In this document: positions 2,283-64,000 of the stretch, one piece after another | Layout of the letters: each line of letters begins with the position of its first letter | Position numbering within the stretch: the first letter of the stretch is position 1 | Assembly (NCBI GenBank): GCA_944324465.1 | Contig: CALUWI010000006.1 | Coordinates: forward strand, 62,001-126,000 | Length of the DNA: 64,000 nucleotides | Source of the DNA: an uncultured Mucispirillum sp. | Lineage (GTDB): Bacteria; Chrysiogenota; Deferribacteres; Deferribacterales; Mucispirillaceae | Direction of reading: 5' to 3' | Translations under genes and position numbers: made by a program | Notes under the pieces: generated by a model | Seen by the model: only the letters and a program-made list of their open reading frames with translations | What the model was told of the DNA's origin: nothing | Database searches by the model: none

Positions 2283-2628
2283 GGGGGTGCTCGGTTTCGA
2301 CAGGGGGCCGATATCCTCAAATGCATGTCAAGGCTGTCTGAGCCCTTGTAAAAACTCAGGCAAAAAAGTAAACGCTAACGACGAATTAGCTCTCGCTGCA
2401 TAGTGTCAGCGACGCTCTTATGGACTGTCCGCCCATGACGGACTGTAAGGGTGTCAACTAATATGGGCTGGTATCTGCTTTGCTCTGTGGCAGGTATAAG
2501 ACTTTAAGAGCTTTCCCCAAACTTACTTTGTCTGTGGAGGTGGGCGGGGGAGATTTAAGCACAGACTAAGCATGTAGTATTTGTGGACGTAAGCTTTTTG
2601 GACAGGGGTTCGATTCCCCTCACCTCCA
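2283..2628 (+). ncRNA. ssrA: transfer-messenger RNA (tmRNA)
   Basis: The 5' end GGGGGTG (2283-2289) pairs with CACCTCC (2621-2627) to form a 7-bp acceptor stem with one G-U pair, followed by discriminator A at 2628. CCA is not encoded. The conserved GCTCGGTTTCGACAGGGGG opening and the T-arm CAGGGGTTCGATTCCCCT are present. The tag reading frame runs from GGC at 2359 to the TAG at 2401-2403 and encodes GKKVNANDELALAA, ending in the ALAA degron recognised by ClpXP-type proteases. The resume codon GGC, rather than GCA, is assigned from the B. subtilis-like pattern and is inference. The gene lies next to smpB, its protein partner. Confidence 0.97.
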
Positions 2629-2639
2629 TAAATAAAAAT

Positions 2640-2663
2640 AGGCACCTATGGTGCCTTTTTTTA
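2640..2663 (+). terminator. Rho-independent terminator of ssrA
   Basis: GGCACC-TAT-GGTGCC (2641-2655) is a 6-bp hairpin with a 3-base loop, immediately followed by seven T residues. It begins 12 bases after the tmRNA 3' end. Confidence 0.85.
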
Positions 2664-2815
2664 TTTATAAAGATAAGTACAGGGAATCGAACGGCAAATT
2701 TCGCTGAGCGAGTAGCGAAGAAAAGCAAACAGGATGTTTGCGACAGAAATTTGGCTGGACTTTTAATGAATTTTTAGGACAAAAATTTATTAAAAGCGAT
2801 TCCCCTCACCATATA
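2654..2815 (+). repeat. tmRNA-flanking repeat unit, copy A
   Basis: The unit begins with CCTTTTTTTATTTATAAAG and holds GGGAATCGAAC at 2682-2692, the inverse complement of the tmRNA T-arm GTTCGATTCCC. It ends with CGATTCCCCTCACC at 2797-2810, a direct copy of tmRNA positions 2611-2624. Between them lies TTTCGCTGAGCGAGTAGCGAAG and a segment with AGCAAAC-AGGAT-GTTTGC, which forms a small hairpin. No protein is encoded. Copy B follows directly. Confidence 0.8.
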
Positions 2816-2825
2816 CCAATACTAT

Positions 2826-3086
2826 CCTTTTTTTATTTATAAAGATAAGTATTGGGAATCGAACGACATTAAACTTTTATTTAAAAATCCATCCATGGAT
2901 TTTTAAAATCTCCGCATCTACGGGGAAACCCCTTGATGCTTGCTAAAGAAGCTTTATCCTAAAGCTTTGTTTCGCTGAGCGAGTAGCGAAGAAAAGCAAA
3001 CAGGATGTTTGCGACAGAAATTTGGCTGGGTTTTTAATGAATTTTTAGGACAAAAATTTATTAAAAGCGATTTCCCTCACCATATA
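2826..3086 (+). repeat. tmRNA-flanking repeat unit, copy B, with a structured insert
   Basis: The first 40 bases (2826-2865) match copy A at 2654-2693, and the last 117 bases (2970-3086) match copy A at 2699-2815 with about three mismatches. Between them is a segment of about 100 bases absent from copy A. It includes the hairpin GCATCTACGGGGAAACCCCTTGATGC in two arms (2924-2949) and GCTTTATCCTAAAGC (2951-2965). The T-arm copies are again inverted at 2854-2864 and direct, with one change, at 3068-3081. I see no gene in it. Confidence 0.78.
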
Positions 3087-3225
3087 TCTTATTCTTTCTT
3101 TATCAATAAGTTATCGGATTATTTTTTTGCTTTCCACAAGAATTTTATCAAAAGAATAAAATATCACTAAATGTTTTATAAAAATATGTAATCAAATTGA
3201 ATAAGATATAGAAATAGTATTGGAT

Positions 3226-3265
3226 ATAATATAATATAATATAATATAATATAATATAATATAAT
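3226..3265. repeat. pentanucleotide tandem repeat, (ATAAT)8
   Basis: Eight perfect head-to-tail copies of ATAAT, flanked by further AT-only sequence. It lies in the stretch between the tmRNA repeats and the end of higA, downstream of higA on its coding strand. It is therefore not obviously placed to vary a promoter. Slippage variation between strains is plausible. Confidence 0.9.
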
Positions 3266-3352
3266 ATATATACATTGACTTATTTATAACATAGCAAATA
3301 AATATAGGAAATTATTATGTATAAGATAGAACAAAACAGTAGTAATTATATT

Positions 3353-3646
3353 TTACACTGCACAACTTTTAATATTCTTCAATTCTTCATTCATAGTTAC
3401 TAATGTATTGCGGATATCTATATCGTTTTGCAGATTTAAGAAATATTTATCACTTACATTAAAATATCTTGCTAGTCGCAGGGATGTATCAACAGTGATT
3501 TTGCGTTTATCTTTTAATATATCCTGTATGCGAGATGTTGGAACATTTATATCTTTTGCTAATTTATATGCAGATATTCCTAATGGTTGCATAAATTCTT
3601 CTAGTAATATTTCACTTATTTTTGGTGTTTCTATTATATTTTCCAT
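3353..3646 (-). CDS. higA: HigA-family antitoxin, HTH repressor
   Basis: A 97-residue helix-turn-helix protein: PLGISAYKLAKDINVPTSRIQDILKDKRKITVDTSLRLARYFNVSDKYFLNLQND is the XRE/HTH_3 fold in the arrangement typical of VapI/HigA antitoxins. It is expected to neutralise the toxin encoded just upstream and to repress the shared promoter. The ATG at 3646 is preceded by AAGGAG at 7 bases; that site sits across the end of higB. The toxin stop is 10 bases before this start. The higB-higA order, toxin first, is the usual one for this family. Confidence 0.88.
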   Translation of the reverse strand: MENIIETPKISEILLEEFMQPLGISAYKLAKDINVPTSRIQDILKDKRKITVDTSLRLARYFNVSDKYFLNLQNDIDIRNTLVTMNEELKNIKSCAV

Positions 3647-3656
3647 AGAATGCTCC

Positions 3657-3938
3657 TTAATGATAATCAACTATTTCCACATTATGTATGTGGTTATTAT
3701 CCACAGTAAAACAAATCCTGTATTGGTCATTAATTCTAATACTATACTGCCCTGCTCTATCACCAGATAATTTTTCTAAATGGTTTGATGGTGGAACTTT
3801 TAAATCTTGTATATTTTCAGCATTATCCATCATTATTAGCTTTCTTAATGCTATCTTCTGAATTGCTGCTGGCAATTTTTTAGAAAACTGCTGGTTATAT
3901 ATCTGTTCTGTTTCCTTACACTTAAATGTTTTAATCAT
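3657..3938 (-). CDS. higB: HigB-family toxin (RelE superfamily mRNA endonuclease)
   Basis: The 93-residue protein starting MIKTFKCKETEQIYNQ matches the HigB/RelE family. Conserved segments are LPAAIQKIALRKLIMMDNAENIQDLKVPPSNHLEKLSGDRAGQYSIRINDQYRICF, which holds the basic core and the R-x-Q-Y-R-I-x-F strand. Such toxins bind the ribosomal A site and cut mRNA. Ten extra residues are possible from an upstream ATG at 3968, but family members begin at MIK, so 3938 is chosen. It is the first gene of the pair, with higA 10 bases downstream. Activity is known for the family and not shown here. Confidence 0.88.
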   Translation of the reverse strand: MIKTFKCKETEQIYNQQFSKKLPAAIQKIALRKLIMMDNAENIQDLKVPPSNHLEKLSGDRAGQYSIRINDQYRICFTVDNNHIHNVEIVDYH

Positions 3939-4064
3939 ACTTATAATATACCTGTTATACATATACATGTCAAGCAGATATATTTTTTATATACGATATT
4001 TAATATATAAATCAAGGGAAACTTACCAAAAAAGTTTCTCAAGAATTTTCCAAAAATTTTGACA

Positions 4065-4105
4065 GAGGAAAAGCAAACTAAATGTTTGCGGCAGAAATTT
4101 GGCTG
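4065..4105 (+). repeat. partial third copy of the tmRNA-flanking repeat core
   Basis: GAGGAAAAGCAAACTAAATG and the following TTTGCGGCAGAAATTTGGCTG resemble positions 2716-2757 of copy A with a handful of changes. The outer T-arm-like ends are missing. It sits on the far side of higBA, so the toxin-antitoxin pair lies between copies of the repeat. Confidence 0.6.
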
Positions 4106-4184: not shown

Positions 4185-7100
4185 CTAATCATCAATATAC
4201 CCTTCTGGAAGGTGGTCGTTTCCTGGCACTTTATCTAAGAATAATGAAAGCAGTGCAGGAATTACAAACATAGTAAATACTGTAGCAAGAGCAAGACCGC
4301 CTAATATTACGCTTCCCATACCGCGATAAAGTTCACTTCCAGCACCAGGTGCTATAACCAGCGGAAGCATTCCAAAAAGTGATGTGGCTGTACTCATACT
4401 TATAGGGCGTATTCTTGTTTTTAATGCAAGTCTTACTGCAGCTTTACCGCTCATACCAAGTTTAATATAGTTTAATGACTGGTACACAATTAATATAGGG
4501 TTATTTACTACTGTTCCCACAAGCATAATAAAGCCAAGCATAGTAATAATATCAAGTGGCTGTTCTGCAATAAACAAGTCTGTTAATGCAAGCCCCATAA
4601 ACCCGCCTGTTGCTGCAAGTGGAATAGAAAATAATATAATCAATGGGTACAAAAAGTTATTAAGCAGTGCTGCCATTAAGAAATATGTAATAATAACGGC
4701 TAATATAAAGTTGCCTGATAATGCATTTTTAGCACTTTCTAGTTTTGATGATGCACCGCTTGTAGATATAATAATACCGTTTAAAAGTCCTTCTGCGCGC
4801 ATTGGCTCAATTACTTTATTCATAATGTTATCACGAAGTTCTTCCAACACCATACCTTTTTGCAGTGTGATTTTAAACTCAAAAGCTCTTTGTGAATTAA
4901 AACGCCTTATTCTTTCTACACCTAAAACTTCTTCTGCTTCAAATAAATTAGCAACAGGAACTGCAAGCCCTGTAGATGAATTTACTACAAACTCACTGAC
5001 TTCTGTAGGGTTTGTTTCCATATTGCCAGTTTCTTTTTCTTCATAAGGTCCGCGGAGAGAAATATCAATAGTGCCTATTTCTGGGTCTTTAAACTCCCCT
5101 ACTTTTCTGCCGTCTAAATAAACATCTACTGCGATACCTACTTCTTCAGTAGTAAGACCTGAAGCCATAATAGCTTCCCTGTCTGGGTTTAGCTGCACTT
5201 CTGGATATACTGGATTTGCTGACGGACTTATCTGCATCTGTACATCTGCCATTTCCTGATATATTCTTGACTGAATAAGCTGCACAATAGATATTAACTG
5301 GTCATAGCTCATATTACCAGATACATTCATTTTAAATTCATTACCCTGTCCGCCGCCCACTTTAAATAATGGTGATTGAGAAGTTGAGCCGCGAATACCT
5401 GGTATTTGGTTAACTATACCCTGCAGTAATGGTTTATAGTCCCCTGCACGCTGTTCGTCTGTACTTGTTAATATTGCCCTTACATTTGAACCGCCTACAA
5501 AACCGAATGTATTAATCCGTGGATAGCCGTTTAAATCCTGCTGCATATATGGCTCTAATTCTTTATAAAAGAAGTTACCAATATTTCTTCTTTCAGCAAG
5601 AGAAATACCTGGCGGCACAGTAAGTTTTGTTTCTATCATATTTTTATTGCCAAGAGGAAGATAGTCCATTTTAGGCATTAAAATATAAGCACTTATTAAA
5701 GATGCTACAGTTAAGCCAATTACAAATATTAACCTTGTGCTGACTTTTGCATTTATTTTATCAGAAATACCCACTGTAAAATTAACTACTTTTGAGCCGA
5801 TATTTCCTATAGTTTCATTAAAATTCTGCACTTTACTATGAAATTTGGAATGAGAATTAAATTTAAACTTATCAGTTTTTTCATATATTACTTTTGTAGC
5901 AACAGGTATTACAAATACTGATGCAATAAGGCTTAAGCCAACAGAGGAGCTTACTGCTATTGCAATATCTCCAAAAAGCTGGCCAGCTTCTTCTCTGATA
6001 AATGCAACAGGTAAAAATACAGCTATTGTAGTAAGGGTTGATGCTAAAATCGCACCCCACACTTCCCGCACTGCATCATAAGCTGCAGCTACTGCCTTTT
6101 TACCCATTTTCATGTGCCTGTCAATATTTTCAAGTACAACAATAGAGTTATCTATAAGCATACCTACAGAAAATGCAATACCTGCAAGGCTTATAACATT
6201 TAATGTTCTGCCTAGTGCATTCATAATAAAAAATGTGCCTATAATACATATTGGAATAGTTGTTGCAATAACAAGTGTAGAACGGATACTTCTTAAAAAT
6301 ACTAAAAGAACAATAACTGCTAAAAGCCCGCCTTCAATAATATTAGACTTTACTAAACTTACAGCATTTAAAATATAACCACGCTGGTCTGCTATCCATA
6401 TAAATTCTATACCGTTATCTTTTAATACTGTATTATTTAAATCGTTTATTACTTTTTCTAAATCATTAGTTAAATCTAATATATTATAGCCTGCCTGAGC
6501 AATAATACCGATATTCATAGCGTTTTTATTGTTATATCTAACAAACGAGTCTTTTTTCTCATAGCCGTAATCAACATGAGCCACATCGCCAAGTTTAAGT
6601 CTTGAATTATCACTGCTGACGATTACTATATTTGCTATATCTTCAGGTGTTTCGCCTTCTCCCATTGTTCTAAAACGGTAATCTTTTGCTCCATACGCTC
6701 TTGTACCTGCTGATACATCAATATTTTCTTTATCAATAGCATTAATTATTTGAGAAAGGCTTATATTGTATGCACCCATTTTATATGGGTCTACAGTAAT
6801 CTGCACCTGTTTTGACCTGCCACCCCAGTACCACATATCTGCAACACCCTGCACACGCTCAATATACGGCTTAATCACTTCTTCAAAGTAGCTTAAATAT
6901 TCATCTACACTTCTTGGGTTGCCGTCCCTTGTTGTAAGCATTAATTCAACAGATGCAAAAGAGTCACTGTCTGCTGAACGGATAGTTGGTTTATCTATAT
7001 CATCAGGGTATCCTTTAACTTCATCAAGTTTATTAGAAACAAGCAGTATTGCATCATCAACATTAACAGATAAATCAAAGGTAAGTTTTACATTACATCT

Positions 7101-7355
7101 GCCTTCCATAGCTGTACTTTCAAACTCTGTTAAGCCTGGTATGCTTTTTAATACCCTTTCCTGCCTGTCTATAACTTCTTTTTCCATATCATAAGGGGAA
7201 GCACCAGTCCATGTTGTGCGTATTGTAATCTGCGGATATTCTATATTTGGAATAAGGCGGTATGGCATATTCATTACTGCCTGCACACCAAAAAGCACTA
7301 CAAAAAATATTGCTACTAATACTTTTATTGGGTTATCTAATGCATACTTAATCAT
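4185..7355 (-). CDS. RND efflux permease (HAE1/AcrB-like), system 1
   Basis: This 1056-residue inner membrane pump has the RND layout: TM1 at the N terminus (VLVAIFFVVLFGVQAV), a large periplasmic loop, a six-helix block around residues 340-475, a second periplasmic loop, and a C-terminal helix block. The proton-relay helix reads GMLIDNSIVVLENI, with one aspartate of the usual Asp-Asp pair kept and the second position Asn, as in many HAE1 pumps. It should expel hydrophobic or amphipathic compounds by proton antiport; the substrate cannot be named. The adaptor gene ends 4 bases upstream. No TolC-type outer membrane gene is adjacent. A second pump with the same architecture is at 59805-62996. 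Confidence 0.93.
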   Translation of the reverse strand: MIKYALDNPIKVLVAIFFVVLFGVQAVMNMPYRLIPNIEYPQITIRTTWTGASPYDMEKEVIDRQERVLKSIPGLTEFESTAMEGRCNVKLTFDLSVNVDDAILLVSNKLDEVKGYPDDIDKPTIRSADSDSFASVELMLTTRDGNPRSVDEYLSYFEEVIKPYIERVQGVADMWYWGGRSKQVQITVDPYKMGAYNISLSQIINAIDKENIDVSAGTRAYGAKDYRFRTMGEGETPEDIANIVIVSSDNSRLKLGDVAHVDYGYEKKDSFVRYNNKNAMNIGIIAQAGYNILDLTNDLEKVINDLNNTVLKDNGIEFIWIADQRGYILNAVSLVKSNIIEGGLLAVIVLLVFLRSIRSTLVIATTIPICIIGTFFIMNALGRTLNVISLAGIAFSVGMLIDNSIVVLENIDRHMKMGKKAVAAAYDAVREVWGAILASTLTTIAVFLPVAFIREEAGQLFGDIAIAVSSSVGLSLIASVFVIPVATKVIYEKTDKFKFNSHSKFHSKVQNFNETIGNIGSKVVNFTVGISDKINAKVSTRLIFVIGLTVASLISAYILMPKMDYLPLGNKNMIETKLTVPPGISLAERRNIGNFFYKELEPYMQQDLNGYPRINTFGFVGGSNVRAILTSTDEQRAGDYKPLLQGIVNQIPGIRGSTSQSPLFKVGGGQGNEFKMNVSGNMSYDQLISIVQLIQSRIYQEMADVQMQISPSANPVYPEVQLNPDREAIMASGLTTEEVGIAVDVYLDGRKVGEFKDPEIGTIDISLRGPYEEKETGNMETNPTEVSEFVVNSSTGLAVPVANLFEAEEVLGVERIRRFNSQRAFEFKITLQKGMVLEELRDNIMNKVIEPMRAEGLLNGIIISTSGASSKLESAKNALSGNFILAVIITYFLMAALLNNFLYPLIILFSIPLAATGGFMGLALTDLFIAEQPLDIITMLGFIMLVGTVVNNPILIVYQSLNYIKLGMSGKAAVRLALKTRIRPISMSTATSLFGMLPLVIAPGAGSELYRGMGSVILGGLALATVFTMFVIPALLSLFLDKVPGNDHLPEGYIDD

Positions 7356-7359
7356 AATA

Positions 7360-8445
7360 TCAGCCTATTTTAGAAGTTATTTTAATTTTTACACCGTTAT
7401 TTACTGCATTATTACCGTCTAAAACTATCTGGTCATCTTTTTTAAGTGAACCTTCTGTTACTGAGGTTACTGCAGCATAGCCGCCGTTATAACCTATTAT
7501 TTTTACTGGTATAAAGCGAACTCTCTCATCTTCTGATACTTTAAACACTCCTTTTACACTGTTACGCTCTACTACTGCATCTCGCGGAACTAATAAGGAA
7601 TTAATTTTACTGCCTGACGGGATTAAGGCTACTACTAAAACTCCTTCTTTTAAATCAGGGTCCTGACCTAAATCTATACGAGTTAAAAATAATCTGGTTG
7701 CTGGGTCCCCTTTTGAGTTAATTGATAATACTTTACCTGTATATTCCTTGCGGCTTGTTTTTACTGTTACCTGCTGGCCGGCTTTGATATATGGAAGAAC
7801 TGTTTCTGGAATATATACTTTTGCTTCATAAGTTAAGGTAGCTACTCCTGCTACTACACCGCCTGAATTTACCCATTCGCCTACTTCCACATCTTTACTG
7901 ATTACTACCCCTTTTAATGGTGATTTGATTACCATTTTCTCTTTCTGAGTTTCAAGCTGTTTCTGTTGGGATACTGCTGATGTATATGCACTTTGGGCAT
8001 TAGTATAATCTGTTAATGAGTCTTGATATTTCTGCTGGGATATTGATTTTTGAGTGTATAATACTTTATTACGGTTAAAATCTCTTAAGGCTTTATCTAA
8101 ATTTGCTTTTGCCTGTTTGGTGGCTGCAACGGCACTTGATACACTGTACCCTAATAAACTGTCATCTAAACTTGCAAGGGGCTGCCCTATTTCTACTGCA
8201 TCACCCTCATTTACATACACTTTTAATACTTTGCCTGCACTTTCTGCTGCAACTTGGGAACTTTCGCTGAAATATGCTGAGCCTGTTATCATCATTGTAG
8301 GTGATGTCATTCCTTCTGACACTTTCTCTACAGTTACTAATACAACACGCTCTTTACTTGGTGAACCTGCCTGTTTATTTTGTGCTGATACTATAAATGG
8401 AATAAAAAAAAGAATTATTAAAATTATTAAAAAGTACTTTTTCAT
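7360..8445 (-). CDS. RND periplasmic adaptor (membrane fusion protein), system 1
   Basis: The 361-residue protein has a signal sequence (MKKYFLIILIILFFIPFIVSAQ), a split biotinyl-lipoyl-like domain (ESAGKVLKVYVNEGDAVEIGQPLASLDD and later KSPLKGVVISKDVEVGEWV), and a central helical hairpin rich in Lys, Gln and Ala. Beta-barrel and membrane-proximal domains follow. It should bridge the pump to an outer membrane channel. I chose the ATG at 8445 over 8457 because GGGG lies 7 bases before it and the signal peptide then starts with MKK. The 976 bases from the 3' end onward match the adaptor gene at 63021-64000 with two silent differences, whereas the two pump genes are clearly diverged. Confidence 0.94.
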   Translation of the reverse strand: MKKYFLIILIILFFIPFIVSAQNKQAGSPSKERVVLVTVEKVSEGMTSPTMMITGSAYFSESSQVAAESAGKVLKVYVNEGDAVEIGQPLASLDDSLLGYSVSSAVAATKQAKANLDKALRDFNRNKVLYTQKSISQQKYQDSLTDYTNAQSAYTSAVSQQKQLETQKEKMVIKSPLKGVVISKDVEVGEWVNSGGVVAGVATLTYEAKVYIPETVLPYIKAGQQVTVKTSRKEYTGKVLSINSKGDPATRLFLTRIDLGQDPDLKEGVLVVALIPSGSKINSLLVPRDAVVERNSVKGVFKVSEDERVRFIPVKIIGYNGGYAAVTSVTEGSLKKDDQIVLDGNNAVNNGVKIKITSKIG

Positions 8446-8576
8446 AAACAGCCCCATAACACTGACATATATCTTAATAGATTACTATAATTAGTAAAAG
8501 TTCAGTAATTTTTCAAGTCCAAATTAAAATATAAGTAGTGTTATGAAAGCCTAATGTTACATTTTAAATTATAAAA

Positions 8577-10643
8577 TTATCTTAAAGCCCGCATAGAGTT
8601 TAATAATGCAAGTAAAGCAACGCCTACATCACCAAATACTGCCATCCACATAGATGCAATATCTACTAACCCTAAAACTATAAACAGAGCCTTAATACCA
8701 AGAGCAAAAACTATATTCTGCCATATAATTTTTTTAGTTTTTTTCGCAACTTTTACAGCATCTACAAGTTTCATTAATGAGTCATTCATTATAACTACAT
8801 CGGCAGTTTCAATAGCTGCATCACTTCCTGCTGCTCCCATAGAAACACCAACATCTGCCATAGCAAGAACTGGTGCATCATTTATGCCGTCACCTACATA
8901 TAATGAATATCCGCTGCCTTTATATTTATCTGCAAATTCTTTAAATTTTTCTGCCTTGTCTTCTGGCAGTAAGTCATAATAATATTCTTTAATACCAGTA
9001 TCTTTTAATATGGTTTCTGTTGCATATTTATTATCGCCAGTTAAAACTGTAATATTTTTTATACCTGCTTCATAAAGTTTATTTACTGCTTCAACTGTAT
9101 CATCTTTTAATTTATCACTTATTATAATGTAGCCTGCATATTCCTTATCTATTACCACATGAGCAACACTGCCTAAAATATTACATACACTTTCATCATG
9201 AGCTGTATTAGTAAAATGCAGCAGACTATCGTTTCCTACCATGATTTCCTTATCTTCTATAGATACTTTTACACCTCTGCCGCTTATTTCTTCATATTCT
9301 TTAATAGAATAATCAATATTTCCGGCATATTCCACAATAGAGCGTGCTATAGGGTGGCTTGATTTACTTTCTGCAACAGCTGCATATTTTACAATTTCGC
9401 TTTCAGAATATCTGCCAAAAGATTTTACTTCAGTTACTGTAAAAATACCTTTTGTAAGAGTACCTGTTTTATCAAAAGCAACAGCCTGTATATTAGATAA
9501 TGCTTCAAGATAGTTTGCACCTTTTACTAATATACCTTTTTTAGATGCTCCACCAATACCGCCAAAGTAACCAAGGGGCACACTTATTATTAATGCACAT
9601 GGGCATGATACAACTAATGCAACTAATGCACGGTAAAGCCACTGGCTAAATGTTCCCATATCTAAAAGCGGCGGCACAACAGCTATTGCAAAGGCTATGA
9701 AAAACACAATAGGTGTATAATATGATGCAAATTTAGTAATAAAATTTTCTGTTTTTGCTTTATTTACAGCAGCATTTTCTACCATATCTAATATTTTAGA
9801 TGCAGAGCTTTCTGCAAATATTTTCTCTACCTTAACTTCAATAATACCAGTTAAGCTAATCATACCAGATAACACTTTATCGCCAGTTTCTGCACTTCTT
9901 GGTACAGATTCCCCTGTTAATGCTCTTGTATCTAATGTTGTTCTGCCTTTTATAACTATGCCGTCAAGAGCTATTTTCTCCCCTGCTTTTACAACTATAG
10001 TTTCACCGACATTTACAGTTTCAGGGTCAACTCTGCACTCTTTGCCGTCCCTTACAACTACTGCATAATCTGGGCGTATTTCTAAAAGGGACTGAATAGA
10101 ACGGCGGCTTCTATGAACTGCTAAATCCTGAAAAAATTCTCCAGCTCTGTAAAAAAGCATAACACCAACAGCTTCTTCATGGCTGCCTATTGCCCAGGCT
10201 GCAAGTGTAGCAAATGTCATAAGAAAATTTTCATCAAATATTTTACCATGACGGAGATTTTTAATAGATGCTAAGATTACATCTTTTCCCGCAATTAAAT
10301 AAACAATAACTAATACTGCATAGCTTAAATAAGAAAAAGGTGGAGTTTGAAAAGTATGCAGCATATAAAACCCTGCACCAAATGCAGCAAGCAGAACACC
10401 TAAAAGTATTAATTCATTTTTTACATTAAAACTTTCTTCCTGTTTTTTCTCGTGTATTACAACACCTTTTTCTATTTCATCAACTGCTTCCTGCACTTTA
10501 TGAATATTATCAGTATTTATCATTAATGTTTTTGTGGCAAAAACTACCTTTGCATCTTTTACACAGTCAAGATTTTTTATCCCTTCTTCTATTTTTGCAG
10601 CACAATATGGACAGTCTAAATTTTCAAGCATATATTTTTTCAT
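8577..10643 (-). CDS. zntA/cadA-like: P1B-type heavy metal ATPase (Zn/Cd/Pb type)
   Basis: The 688-residue efflux ATPase has one N-terminal heavy-metal-associated domain with LDCPYCAAKI (Cys11, Cys14). It also has the TGES actuator loop (about residues 243-246), the transport motif SCPCAL (Cys347, Cys349), the phosphorylation site DKTGTLTKG (Asp391), the SSHP motif, the GDGINDAP hinge, and a final helix with GDVGVALLALLNSMR whose Asp matches the metal ligand of ZntA-type pumps. CPC with this final Asp points to divalent Zn/Cd/Pb export rather than copper. The ATG at 10643 has GAGG 8 bases upstream and lies 4 bases after the repressor gene, so the two are co-transcribed and probably metal-induced. 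Confidence 0.94.
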   Translation of the reverse strand: MKKYMLENLDCPYCAAKIEEGIKNLDCVKDAKVVFATKTLMINTDNIHKVQEAVDEIEKGVVIHEKKQEESFNVKNELILLGVLLAAFGAGFYMLHTFQTPPFSYLSYAVLVIVYLIAGKDVILASIKNLRHGKIFDENFLMTFATLAAWAIGSHEEAVGVMLFYRAGEFFQDLAVHRSRRSIQSLLEIRPDYAVVVRDGKECRVDPETVNVGETIVVKAGEKIALDGIVIKGRTTLDTRALTGESVPRSAETGDKVLSGMISLTGIIEVKVEKIFAESSASKILDMVENAAVNKAKTENFITKFASYYTPIVFFIAFAIAVVPPLLDMGTFSQWLYRALVALVVSCPCALIISVPLGYFGGIGGASKKGILVKGANYLEALSNIQAVAFDKTGTLTKGIFTVTEVKSFGRYSESEIVKYAAVAESKSSHPIARSIVEYAGNIDYSIKEYEEISGRGVKVSIEDKEIMVGNDSLLHFTNTAHDESVCNILGSVAHVVIDKEYAGYIIISDKLKDDTVEAVNKLYEAGIKNITVLTGDNKYATETILKDTGIKEYYYDLLPEDKAEKFKEFADKYKGSGYSLYVGDGINDAPVLAMADVGVSMGAAGSDAAIETADVVIMNDSLMKLVDAVKVAKKTKKIIWQNIVFALGIKALFIVLGLVDIASMWMAVFGDVGVALLALLNSMRALR

Positions 10644-10647
10644 AATA

Positions 10648-10995
10648 CTACCTCTTTTCATTAATGTGCTCTAAACCCATTAAAAGCACACCTGTAATAT
10701 GGTCATCATCAAGGCTGTAAAATACATTTTTGCCTTCCTGCCTTGATTTTACAATACCTGTCTGCCTTAAAAACCTAAGCTGCTGCGATACAGTGGACTG
10801 CTTTAATGATAATGCTGCACATATATCATATACACAAAGCTCTGCTTCCTTTAAGGCAAATAATATTTTTATTCTTGTTGTATCTGCAAATACTTTATAA
10901 AAAAGCTCCAGTGACACAAAAGAATATTCAGAAGGCAGGCTTTCTCTTGCTGCATGCACTGCTTCTGCATCAATTATTTTACTGTCATCTCCCAT
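10648..10995 (-). CDS. ArsR/SmtB-family metal-responsive repressor
   Basis: A 115-residue winged-helix repressor. It has ELCVYDICAAL, the region of the alpha3N cysteine site of CadC/SmtB-type sensors, the recognition helix LKQSTVSQQLRFLRQTGIV, and in the last helix DDDHITGVLLMGLEHINE, with the Asp-x-His and His-x-x-Glu ligands of the alpha5 zinc site. Carrying both sets of ligands suggests response to zinc, cadmium or lead, matching the ATPase it precedes by 4 bases. AGGAG lies 7-8 bases before the ATG. A palindrome 30-51 bases upstream is its likely operator. Confidence 0.93.
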   Translation of the reverse strand: MGDDSKIIDAEAVHAARESLPSEYSFVSLELFYKVFADTTRIKILFALKEAELCVYDICAALSLKQSTVSQQLRFLRQTGIVKSRQEGKNVFYSLDDDHITGVLLMGLEHINEKR

Positions 10996-59284: not shown

Positions 59285-59812
59285 TTATATTAAAGGATTT
59301 TTAATGCTGTAGACATAATGGGGCATATCTATATTATAGTAATGCTTTATAATTTCATCTTTTACTGTCATCCCATTTCTTTCTGCAACTTTTTGTGACG
59401 GGTAGTTATTTGTGCGGATAATAGAATAAACTTCATCTATTTTCAGCTGTTTAAATGCATATTCCTTACATGCTGCAGAACTTTCTAAAGCATAGCCATT
59501 GTGCCAGTATGATTTATTAAAAAGATAGCCTATTTCATAAACTTTTTTATCTTTATAATCCTGCAGAGTAAGTCCGCACTGACCAATTAACTTATCTTCA
59601 CTTTTTAATATAACAGCTAAAAGACCGACACCATCCTGCATATATCTATACTGCTGTTTTTCATACCACTGCATAACTTCTTCATCAGAAAAGCCATGCT
59701 CATAAGCATACATTACTTCTTTATCCTGCAGAATATCCCTTAATGCATTTATATCAGATATCTGCAGCTTTCTTAAATAAAGCCTTTTTGTTTCCATAAT
59801 AGCATTATTCAA
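59285..59812 (-). CDS. GNAT-family N-acetyltransferase (RimJ/RimL-like)
   Basis: The 175-residue protein has the RimJ/RimL-type layout: METKRLYLRKLQISDINALRDILQDKEVM at the start, LIGQCGLTLQDYKDKKVYEIGYLFNKSYWHNGYALESSAACKEYAF in the middle with the W-x-x-G-Y-A acetyl-CoA loop, and YSIIRTNNYPSQKVAERNGMTVKDEIIKHY at the end. Such proteins acetylate protein N termini, antibiotics or other amines. Its first codons overlap the end of the RND pump gene by 8 bases, so it belongs to the same operon as the second efflux system. Confidence 0.88.
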   Translation of the reverse strand: MNNAIMETKRLYLRKLQISDINALRDILQDKEVMYAYEHGFSDEEVMQWYEKQQYRYMQDGVGLLAVILKSEDKLIGQCGLTLQDYKDKKVYEIGYLFNKSYWHNGYALESSAACKEYAFKQLKIDEVYSIIRTNNYPSQKVAERNGMTVKDEIIKHYYNIDMPHYVYSIKNPLI

Positions 59813-62996: not shown

Positions 62997-63020
62997 CTAT
63001 ATATAACCTTAATTATCTGT

Positions 63021-64000
63021 TTATCCTATTTTAGAAGTTATTTTAATTTTTACACCGTTATTTACTGCATTATTACCGTCTAACACTATCTGGTCATCTT
63101 TTTTAAGTGAGCCTTCTGTTACTGAGGTTACTGCAGCATAGCCGCCGTTATAACCTATTATTTTTACTGGTATAAAGCGAACTCTCTCATCTTCTGATAC
63201 TTTAAACACTCCTTTTACACTGTTACGCTCTACTACTGCATCTCGCGGAACTAATAAGGAATTAATTTTACTGCCTGACGGGATTAAGGCTACTACTAAA
63301 ACTCCTTCTTTTAAATCAGGGTCCTGACCTAAATCTATACGAGTTAAAAATAATCTGGTTGCTGGGTCCCCTTTTGAGTTAATTGATAATACTTTACCTG
63401 TATATTCCTTGCGGCTTGTTTTTACTGTTACCTGCTGGCCGGCTTTGATATATGGAAGAACTGTTTCTGGAATATATACTTTTGCTTCATAAGTTAAGGT
63501 AGCTACTCCTGCTACTACACCGCCTGAATTTACCCATTCGCCTACTTCCACATCTTTACTGATTACTACCCCTTTTAATGGTGATTTGATTACCATTTTC
63601 TCTTTCTGAGTTTCAAGCTGTTTCTGTTGGGATACTGCTGATGTATATGCACTTTGGGCATTAGTATAATCTGTTAATGAGTCTTGATATTTCTGCTGGG
63701 ATATTGATTTTTGAGTGTATAATACTTTATTACGGTTAAAATCTCTTAAGGCTTTATCTAAATTTGCTTTTGCCTGTTTGGTGGCTGCAACGGCACTTGA
63801 TACACTGTACCCTAATAAACTGTCATCTAAACTTGCAAGGGGCTGCCCTATTTCTACTGCATCACCCTCATTTACATACACTTTTAATACTTTGCCTGCA
63901 CTTTCTGCTGCAACTTGGGAACTTTCGCTGAAATATGCTGAGCCTGTTATCATCATTGTAGGTGATGTCATTCCTTCTGACACTTTCTCTACAGTTACTA
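63021..64000 (-). CDS. RND periplasmic adaptor, system 2 (cut by window edge)
   Basis: The C-terminal 326 codons lie in the window and the N terminus is beyond position 64000. Within this part the protein is identical to residues of the adaptor at 7360-8445, and the DNA from 63025 to 64000 differs from 7364-8339 at only two silent positions, near the 3' end (63076 region and 63111 region). There are no insertions or deletions. The lipoyl-like halves and helical hairpin are as in that copy. Downstream of the stop codon the two loci are unrelated. A shared recent origin or gene conversion is the simplest reading. Confidence 0.94.
   Translation of the reverse strand, partial: VTVEKVSEGMTSPTMMITGSAYFSESSQVAAESAGKVLKVYVNEGDAVEIGQPLASLDDSLLGYSVSSAVAATKQAKANLDKALRDFNRNKVLYTQKSISQQKYQDSLTDYTNAQSAYTSAVSQQKQLETQKEKMVIKSPLKGVVISKDVEVGEWVNSGGVVAGVATLTYEAKVYIPETVLPYIKAGQQVTVKTSRKEYTGKVLSINSKGDPATRLFLTRIDLGQDPDLKEGVLVVALIPSGSKINSLLVPRDAVVERNSVKGVFKVSEDERVRFIPVKIIGYNGGYAAVTSVTEGSLKKDDQIVLDGNNAVNNGVKIKITSKIG

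Follow-up and report, generated by a model that had tools for sequence, protein, structure and literature searches.

How can one gene of a duplicated cassette remain almost identical in its two copies whilst the gene next to it does not? This question is raised by a 64,000-nucleotide stretch of DNA (hereafter the window) from an uncultured Mucispirillum, which corresponds to positions 62001-126000 of contig C6 of the genome designated here as G000. Two cassettes lie in it, each with an RND periplasmic adaptor gene upstream of an RND pump gene: A1-P1 at 4185-8457, and A2-P2 from 59805 to beyond 64000 (Table 1). The initial annotation put the likeness of the adaptors down to gene conversion or re-duplication, and saw a possible reason in an outer membrane channel shared by both pumps.

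The Two Cassettes

With TIGR01730 (RND_mfp) the adaptor scores 183.5 bits against a curated cut-off of 94.9, which makes it an RND periplasmic adaptor, and the scores of both pumps with PF00873 (AcrB/AcrD/AcrF family) stand against a cut-off of 28. Neither pump reaches the named multidrug RND permease subfamilies, with 538 and 562 bits for NF033617, and 444 and 430 bits for NF000282, the cut-off being 1250 in both cases.

Table 1. Features of the two cassettes and their neighbours (window positions).
Feature	Position	Strand	Evidence
A1, RND periplasmic adaptor, 365 aa, upstream of P1	7360..8457	-	ORF; TIGR01730 RND_mfp; Pfam HlyD families
P1, RND pump (ACR_tran), 1056 aa	4185..7355	-	ORF; PF00873 615.5 bits
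A2, second adaptor, extending beyond the window end (ATG at contig C6:126109)	63021..64000	-	ORF
P2, RND pump (ACR_tran), 1063 aa	59805..62996	-	ORF; PF00873 622.2 bits
Homogenised tract, copy 1, reaching from near the cleavage region of the signal peptide to the final codon	7364..8392	-	
Homogenised tract, copy 2, continuing to window-equivalent 64053	63025..64000	-	
A1 signal peptide region, outside the homogenised tract	8393..8457	-	
Heavy-metal P-type ATPase-like gene, upstream of A1	8577..10661	-	Pfam HMA, E1-E2_ATPase; synteny
GNAT acetyltransferase-like gene, overlapping the P2 end	59285..59812	-	PF13302; synteny

Pairwise comparison of the window with itself reproduces exactly the match from which the question arose: positions 63025-64000 align to 7364-8339 at a constant offset of 55661, with two differences in 976 bases and no indels. 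Both differences, at 7423/63084 (A/C) and 7450/63111 (A/G), are silent; their distances from the A1 gene end at 7360 are 63 and 90 bases. When contig C6 is read beyond 64000, a third silent difference appears at 8365, after which the copies are identical up to 8392, bringing the full tract to 1029 bases (7364-8392) with three differences; in the second copy it ends at window-equivalent 64053, that is, C6:126053. The upstream breakpoint, which lay outside the initial view, therefore falls at the junction between signal peptide and mature protein (A1 ...IPFIVSAQNKQAG, A2 ...IPITVSAQNKQAG), which we infer to be a signal peptidase site. At the other side the match ends, as first described, at the stop codon, the last codon being GGC in one copy and GGA in the other, and the adaptor stop is separated from the pump start by 4 bases (7356-7359) in A1-P1 and by 24 bases (62997-63020) in A2-P2. 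The homogenised part is thus essentially the mature coding region only, with both signal peptides, which share 59% of their nucleotides, outside it. The pumps do differ across their length (about 63% amino acid identity, dN 0.28), and at silent sites they are far from being as close as the adaptors: dS is 1.03 for P1 and P2, against 0.017, with no amino acid change, for mature A1 and A2.

Adaptors and Pumps across the Genus

The genus sample comprised 10 Mucispirillum genomes including G000, and almost all genomes used are draft assemblies. Two complete cassettes are found in five (G000, G003, G005, G006 and G007), G006 being a single contig of 2,347,083 bases with both copies. Of the others, G001 has two copies of the adaptor, both cut off at codon 131, and in G002 a remnant accompanies one intact adaptor. 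In G004 and G008 a contig end interrupts the only adaptor, while G009 has fragments alone. Comparisons of dS between two copies hence cover six of the 10 genomes (five complete pairs and one partial), the other four having one copy, a remnant or fragments. In the five family members that belong to two other genera, adaptor and pump of this type occur once each, the pump being split into two fragments in two of them. The adaptor tree has 20 rows, without the G009 fragments, the G002 remnant and the distant relatives G031, G036, G041, G044 and G047; the pump tree has 18, without the partial pumps of G002 (P2), G008, G009 (P2), G012 and G014.

In all five complete two-cassette genomes the adaptors resemble each other more than they resemble those of any other species. 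Within a genome, dS between mature A1 and A2 is 0.051 in G003, 0.026 in G006, 0.008 in G005 and 0.013 in G007, in addition to the value given for G000, with one amino acid change in each of G005 and G006 and none in G003 and G007; between these five species, orthologous adaptors differ by dS 0.48-1.07. Even the variable N-terminal linker is species-specific and common to both loci (both copies in G006 read KQPSGISSS, and both in G005 TKQSGSQAQ). The adaptor tree accordingly joins A1 and A2 of the same genome in 5/5 complete pairs with 98-100% bootstrap, and an AU test on these pairs rejects the five A1 as one clade against the five A2 (p 5.6e-29). The pumps give the opposite picture, with P1 and P2 forming separate clades (100/100) and differing by dS 0.84-1.09 within the five genomes.

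Between species the adaptor changes rather little at the protein level (dN 0.02-0.17), and purifying selection alone might for this reason be thought to keep the copies similar. The silent sites are homogenised too, however, with dS of 0.008-0.051 within genomes against 0.48-1.07 between them; we reject this explanation on these data and give it a practically negligible probability.

The same five pairs were compared in windows of 30 codons. Adaptor windows are 98-100% identical within genomes versus 72-90% across genomes, whereas pump windows show no clear same-genome excess that would indicate micro-conversion inside the pumps (mean of +0.7 points over 35 windows; the largest, +4.4 points, in the window starting at codon 750). 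Similarity within genomes exceeding that between orthologues, at silent sites as well, together with synteny at both loci, is what characterizes concerted evolution, and judged by these comparisons the adaptor pair of Mucispirillum evolves in concert, most likely by gene conversion. Homogenisation is only partial in the incomplete pair of G001, where dS is 0.30 over the 235 codons assembled. The tuf pair offers no control for conversion here, since there is only one tuf gene per genome in the 8/10 genus genomes with a match.

In closer species pairs, adaptors are more diverged between species than pumps are: dS is 0.48-0.49 against 0.34-0.35 between G000 and G003, and 0.62-0.64 against 0.42-0.45 between G000 and G006.

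Signal Peptides, Synteny and the Origin of the Cassettes

The A1-P1 cassette adjoins the metal ATPase gene across species, and this neighbour marks its locus genus-wide, whilst the genes found next to P2 in the various species are of GNAT, nitroreductase or DegP-like type, GNAT marking the P2 locus in several of them. In G005 and G007 the order is a tandem one (metal ATPase-A1-P1-A2-P2-GNAT), with which the contig ends of G001 are consistent. In G000, G003, G006 and G002 the ATPase-A1-P1 block is separate from the A2-P2 block, by 55 kb in G000 and by location on different contigs in G003 and G002; in G006 the copies are on opposite strands, 1.47 Mb apart one way and about 0.88 Mb the other if the contig is circular. 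Adaptors are therefore homogenised also where the cassettes lie far apart. A DegP-like protease gene (identified by Pfam) and its neighbour flank the tandem in G005, and lie near A2-P2 in G000 and G006.

The signal peptides follow the locus and not the genome. Among G000, G003, G006 and G002, nucleotide identity is 85-92% between A1 signal peptides, the G002 remnant included, and 88-97% between those of A2, but only 58-60% between A1 and A2 of one genome; in G005 and G007 same-genome identity is 72% and 69%, and assignment to locus is ambiguous there. These figures bear on the second process proposed at the outset, in which the adaptor would be re-duplicated in each species and the new copy inserted before the other pump. 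Such re-duplication also predicts identity within genomes, and its molecular end product would be similar. Yet in signal peptides and flanks orthology follows the locus (85-97% at the same locus versus 58-60% in the same genome, in the G000/G003/G006 group), and synteny is kept at both loci, so only the mature region was exchanged. Whole-gene re-duplication is thus rejected on account of the locus-specific signal peptides and flanks, and we consider repeated re-duplication in general very unlikely, whilst the other part of the initial proposal, homogenisation of the adaptor but not of the pump, stands in 5/5 pairs and in both trees.

Since the pump of G011 falls outside P1+P2 in the pump tree (100/99, with a long-branch warning), the cassette duplication looks specific to Mucispirillum or its stem. 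A parsimonious reading of gene order is that tandem duplication came first and that the A1-P1 block moved later, with homogenisation continuing at a distance.

Could the Identity Be an Artefact of Assembly?

One locus could in principle be a copy or consensus of the other. The genomes being mostly drafts, and the contigs of four other species (G001, G004, G008 and G009) breaking within the adaptor, this would not be surprising in itself. Against it, the single contig of G006 has both copies, seven differences apart; the copies of G003 are similar in contig coverage (32.4 and 34.1); and genomes from separate assemblies repeatedly combine identity within the genome with between-species dS of about 0.5 or more. 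An artefact is already largely refuted by this, and we regard it as most improbable. The contig breaks themselves are explained by the homogenised adaptors, in draft genomes of Mucispirillum.

The differences that remain between copies are clustered at tract ends in four genomes (permutation P of 0.0005 in G000, <1e-5 in G003, 0.017 in G005 and 0.007 in G007), and not so in the single-contig G006 (permutation P 0.29). As collapse of repeats in draft assemblies can mimic such clustering, it is no proof of internal tracts.

The A1 of G001 is mosaic-like: in the first assembled bins it hardly differs from the A2 of the same genome, and beyond them it is 96-100% like A1 of G007, which could be due to conversion after introgression or to a chimeric contig. 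On contig C66 of the same genome, P1 is at dS 0.033 from P1 of G007, while the dS between the P2 of the two genomes is 0.49; either introgression or a mixed assembly would account for this A1-P1 block.

A Genome that Lost One Adaptor

In G002 the position upstream of P1 is occupied by an open frame of 83 codons, which comprises the signal peptide, the start of the mature protein, a part corresponding to residues 281-332 and the last few residues; about 250 residues are missing, most of the adaptor fold among them. Over 52 codons the remnant differs from A2 of its own genome by dS 0.206 and dN 0.151, whilst dN in the same stretch is 0.02-0.05 between G002 A2 and the intact adaptors of three other species, and its substitutions are not an assembly slip. 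Because its dS to its own A2 is below that to A1 of other species (0.54-0.86), the remnant probably used to be homogenised with A2, its erosion having set in when homology was lost.

The pump next to it has nevertheless been kept. P1 of G002 is intact and 95% identical to that of the window, with pairwise dN/dS against three relatives of 0.06-0.10, to be compared with 0.05 and 0.07 in two computed pairs among those relatives, all of which have an intact A1; a hand estimate from the pairwise values gives branch dN/dS of about 0.09 for G002 and 0.10 for G006. A pump under such constraint without a neighbouring adaptor suggests that in G002, a natural knock-out of A1, it is A2 that serves both pumps, the case being that of one draft genome, 86% complete.

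What Keeps the Adaptors Alike?

The explanation that we find quite probable starts from two cassettes that probably arose by tandem duplication in an ancestor of the ten Mucispirillum genomes sampled, and that would have evolved in concert ever since. The pumps would have diverged into two old orthologous groups, whilst recurrent, non-reciprocal gene conversion would overwrite the mature part of one adaptor with that of the other. The most likely route would be RecA-type strand exchange between mature-region sequences followed by non-reciprocal repair, the tracts ending where the two genes cease to be homologous, with the signal peptide as the upstream limit and the stop codon as the downstream one. 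Converted alleles would be kept by selection if each adaptor must fit both pumps, so that the adaptors would form one interchangeable pool for the two. Adaptor sharing as the cause of homogenisation is supported but unproven. A more detailed version, in which the single pool perhaps includes mixed assemblies, conversion of the mature part only is selected as mismatched adaptors spoil the adaptor ring, and the signal peptides and upstream regions, being separate, remain available for tuning how much adaptor each locus supplies, is put forward tentatively, as possible rather than probable.

The sharing of an outer membrane channel, suggested at first as the reason, is neither shown nor needed. 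A profile search of G000 finds no channel gene at either locus, and none of its 8 PF02321 hits on contig C6; the hits belong to four genes, on contigs C1, C3, C13 and C24. A common channel does not require like adaptors, because one channel tolerates diverged ones, TolC being described as the single channel for AcrAB, AcrEF, AcrAD and MdtABC (PMC6975555). Sharing of the adaptor fits better, on account of G002.

A serious alternative is that homogenisation is neutral, the adaptors having stayed above the similarity that recombination demands and the pumps having fallen below it, with no functional sharing. Pump windows, mostly 50-80% identical between P1 and P2, are poor substrates for recombination, and adaptors, at 98-100%, are not; the G002 remnant, moreover, diverged once its homology was reduced. 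Given one duplication, however, adaptors and pumps started from equal identity, yet only adaptors escaped divergence in 5/5 complete pairs, and P1 remained constrained in G002 without A1. We therefore consider neutrality rather unlikely. The adaptor-docking domains of the pumps are not better conserved between P1 and P2 (61% for DN and 59% for DC, against 77-80% for the membrane parts), a weak comparison with approximate borders, which are those of AcrB shifted by eye using the alignments.

Comparison with Known Systems

Concerted evolution is already known as a process. Long-lasting cases have been reported for 26 prokaryotic protein genes, including tufA/tufB, ammonia oxidation genes and psbA/psbD, the causes proposed being gene balance and paralogue interference in complexes, with partial-gene cases left for future work (PMC6053082). 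As here, the paralogues described there are closer within than between species, silent sites included, with both loci syntenic, and many are subunits of complexes. Unlike them, the Mucispirillum adaptors are homogenised in their mature part only and the neighbouring partner gene is free to diverge; the classic tuf pair, for its part, is absent from Mucispirillum. The main text of that study names no efflux gene ('efflux' has 0 occurrences), and no report of concerted evolution of an RND adaptor was found in the literature searched, as judged by titles and the starts of abstracts. In that literature the RND adaptor is thus new as a gene type, and its layout is unusually clean.

Amongst efflux systems, the adaptors AcrA and AcrE are encoded by two distinct genes that have diverged. 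In Mucispirillum, the pumps mostly keep an adaptor of their own next to them and both adaptors are near-identical. Otherwise the two situations are alike in that several pumps may use one adaptor: in Salmonella both AcrA and AcrE work with AcrB and AcrD, and AcrD has no adaptor of its own, just like P1 in G002 (PMC8446912, PMC6975555). MdtABC, with one adaptor and two pump proteins, likewise combines two related pumps with effectively one adaptor, and in G005 and G007 the cassettes are in tandem, but the adaptor gene is present twice in Mucispirillum, and a mixed trimer such as MdtB and MdtC form would be conjectural for P1 and P2.

The cassettes amount to a natural experiment, in which one subunit is held identical whilst its partner genes diverge, genus-wide, with sharp borders, with the cassettes in tandem or distant, and with one lineage in which the adaptor was lost and the pump kept. 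They render testable the proposal that shared subunits of complexes are protected by concerted evolution against paralogue interference, and the pattern suggests that adaptor sharing might be read from sequence.

Other Features near the Loci

Beyond the P1 end of the first cassette, a tmRNA gene (2283-2631) is followed, within 2628-4105, by two direct repeats of 117 bases (2699-2815 and 2970-3086, 97%), which end in a short stretch resembling the tmRNA 3′ end; a third, partial copy is found at 4065-4105, just beyond P1. The arrangement resembles a scar left by the integration of an element at the tmRNA. Adjoining the repeats, two small overlapping minus-strand ORFs (3353-3968) may represent a HigB/HigA-type toxin-antitoxin pair, which they resemble by position and reading.

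On the other side, beyond the window, a 560-aa ORF and an overlapping 111-aa ORF are present in a recent tandem duplication of 2.3 kb (C6:128349-132924, 97.6%), adjoined by ORFs of 1304 aa and 297 aa. None of the ORFs of this region reaches a Pfam cut-off; by eye, the 297-aa protein resembles a PAAR-like secretion protein.
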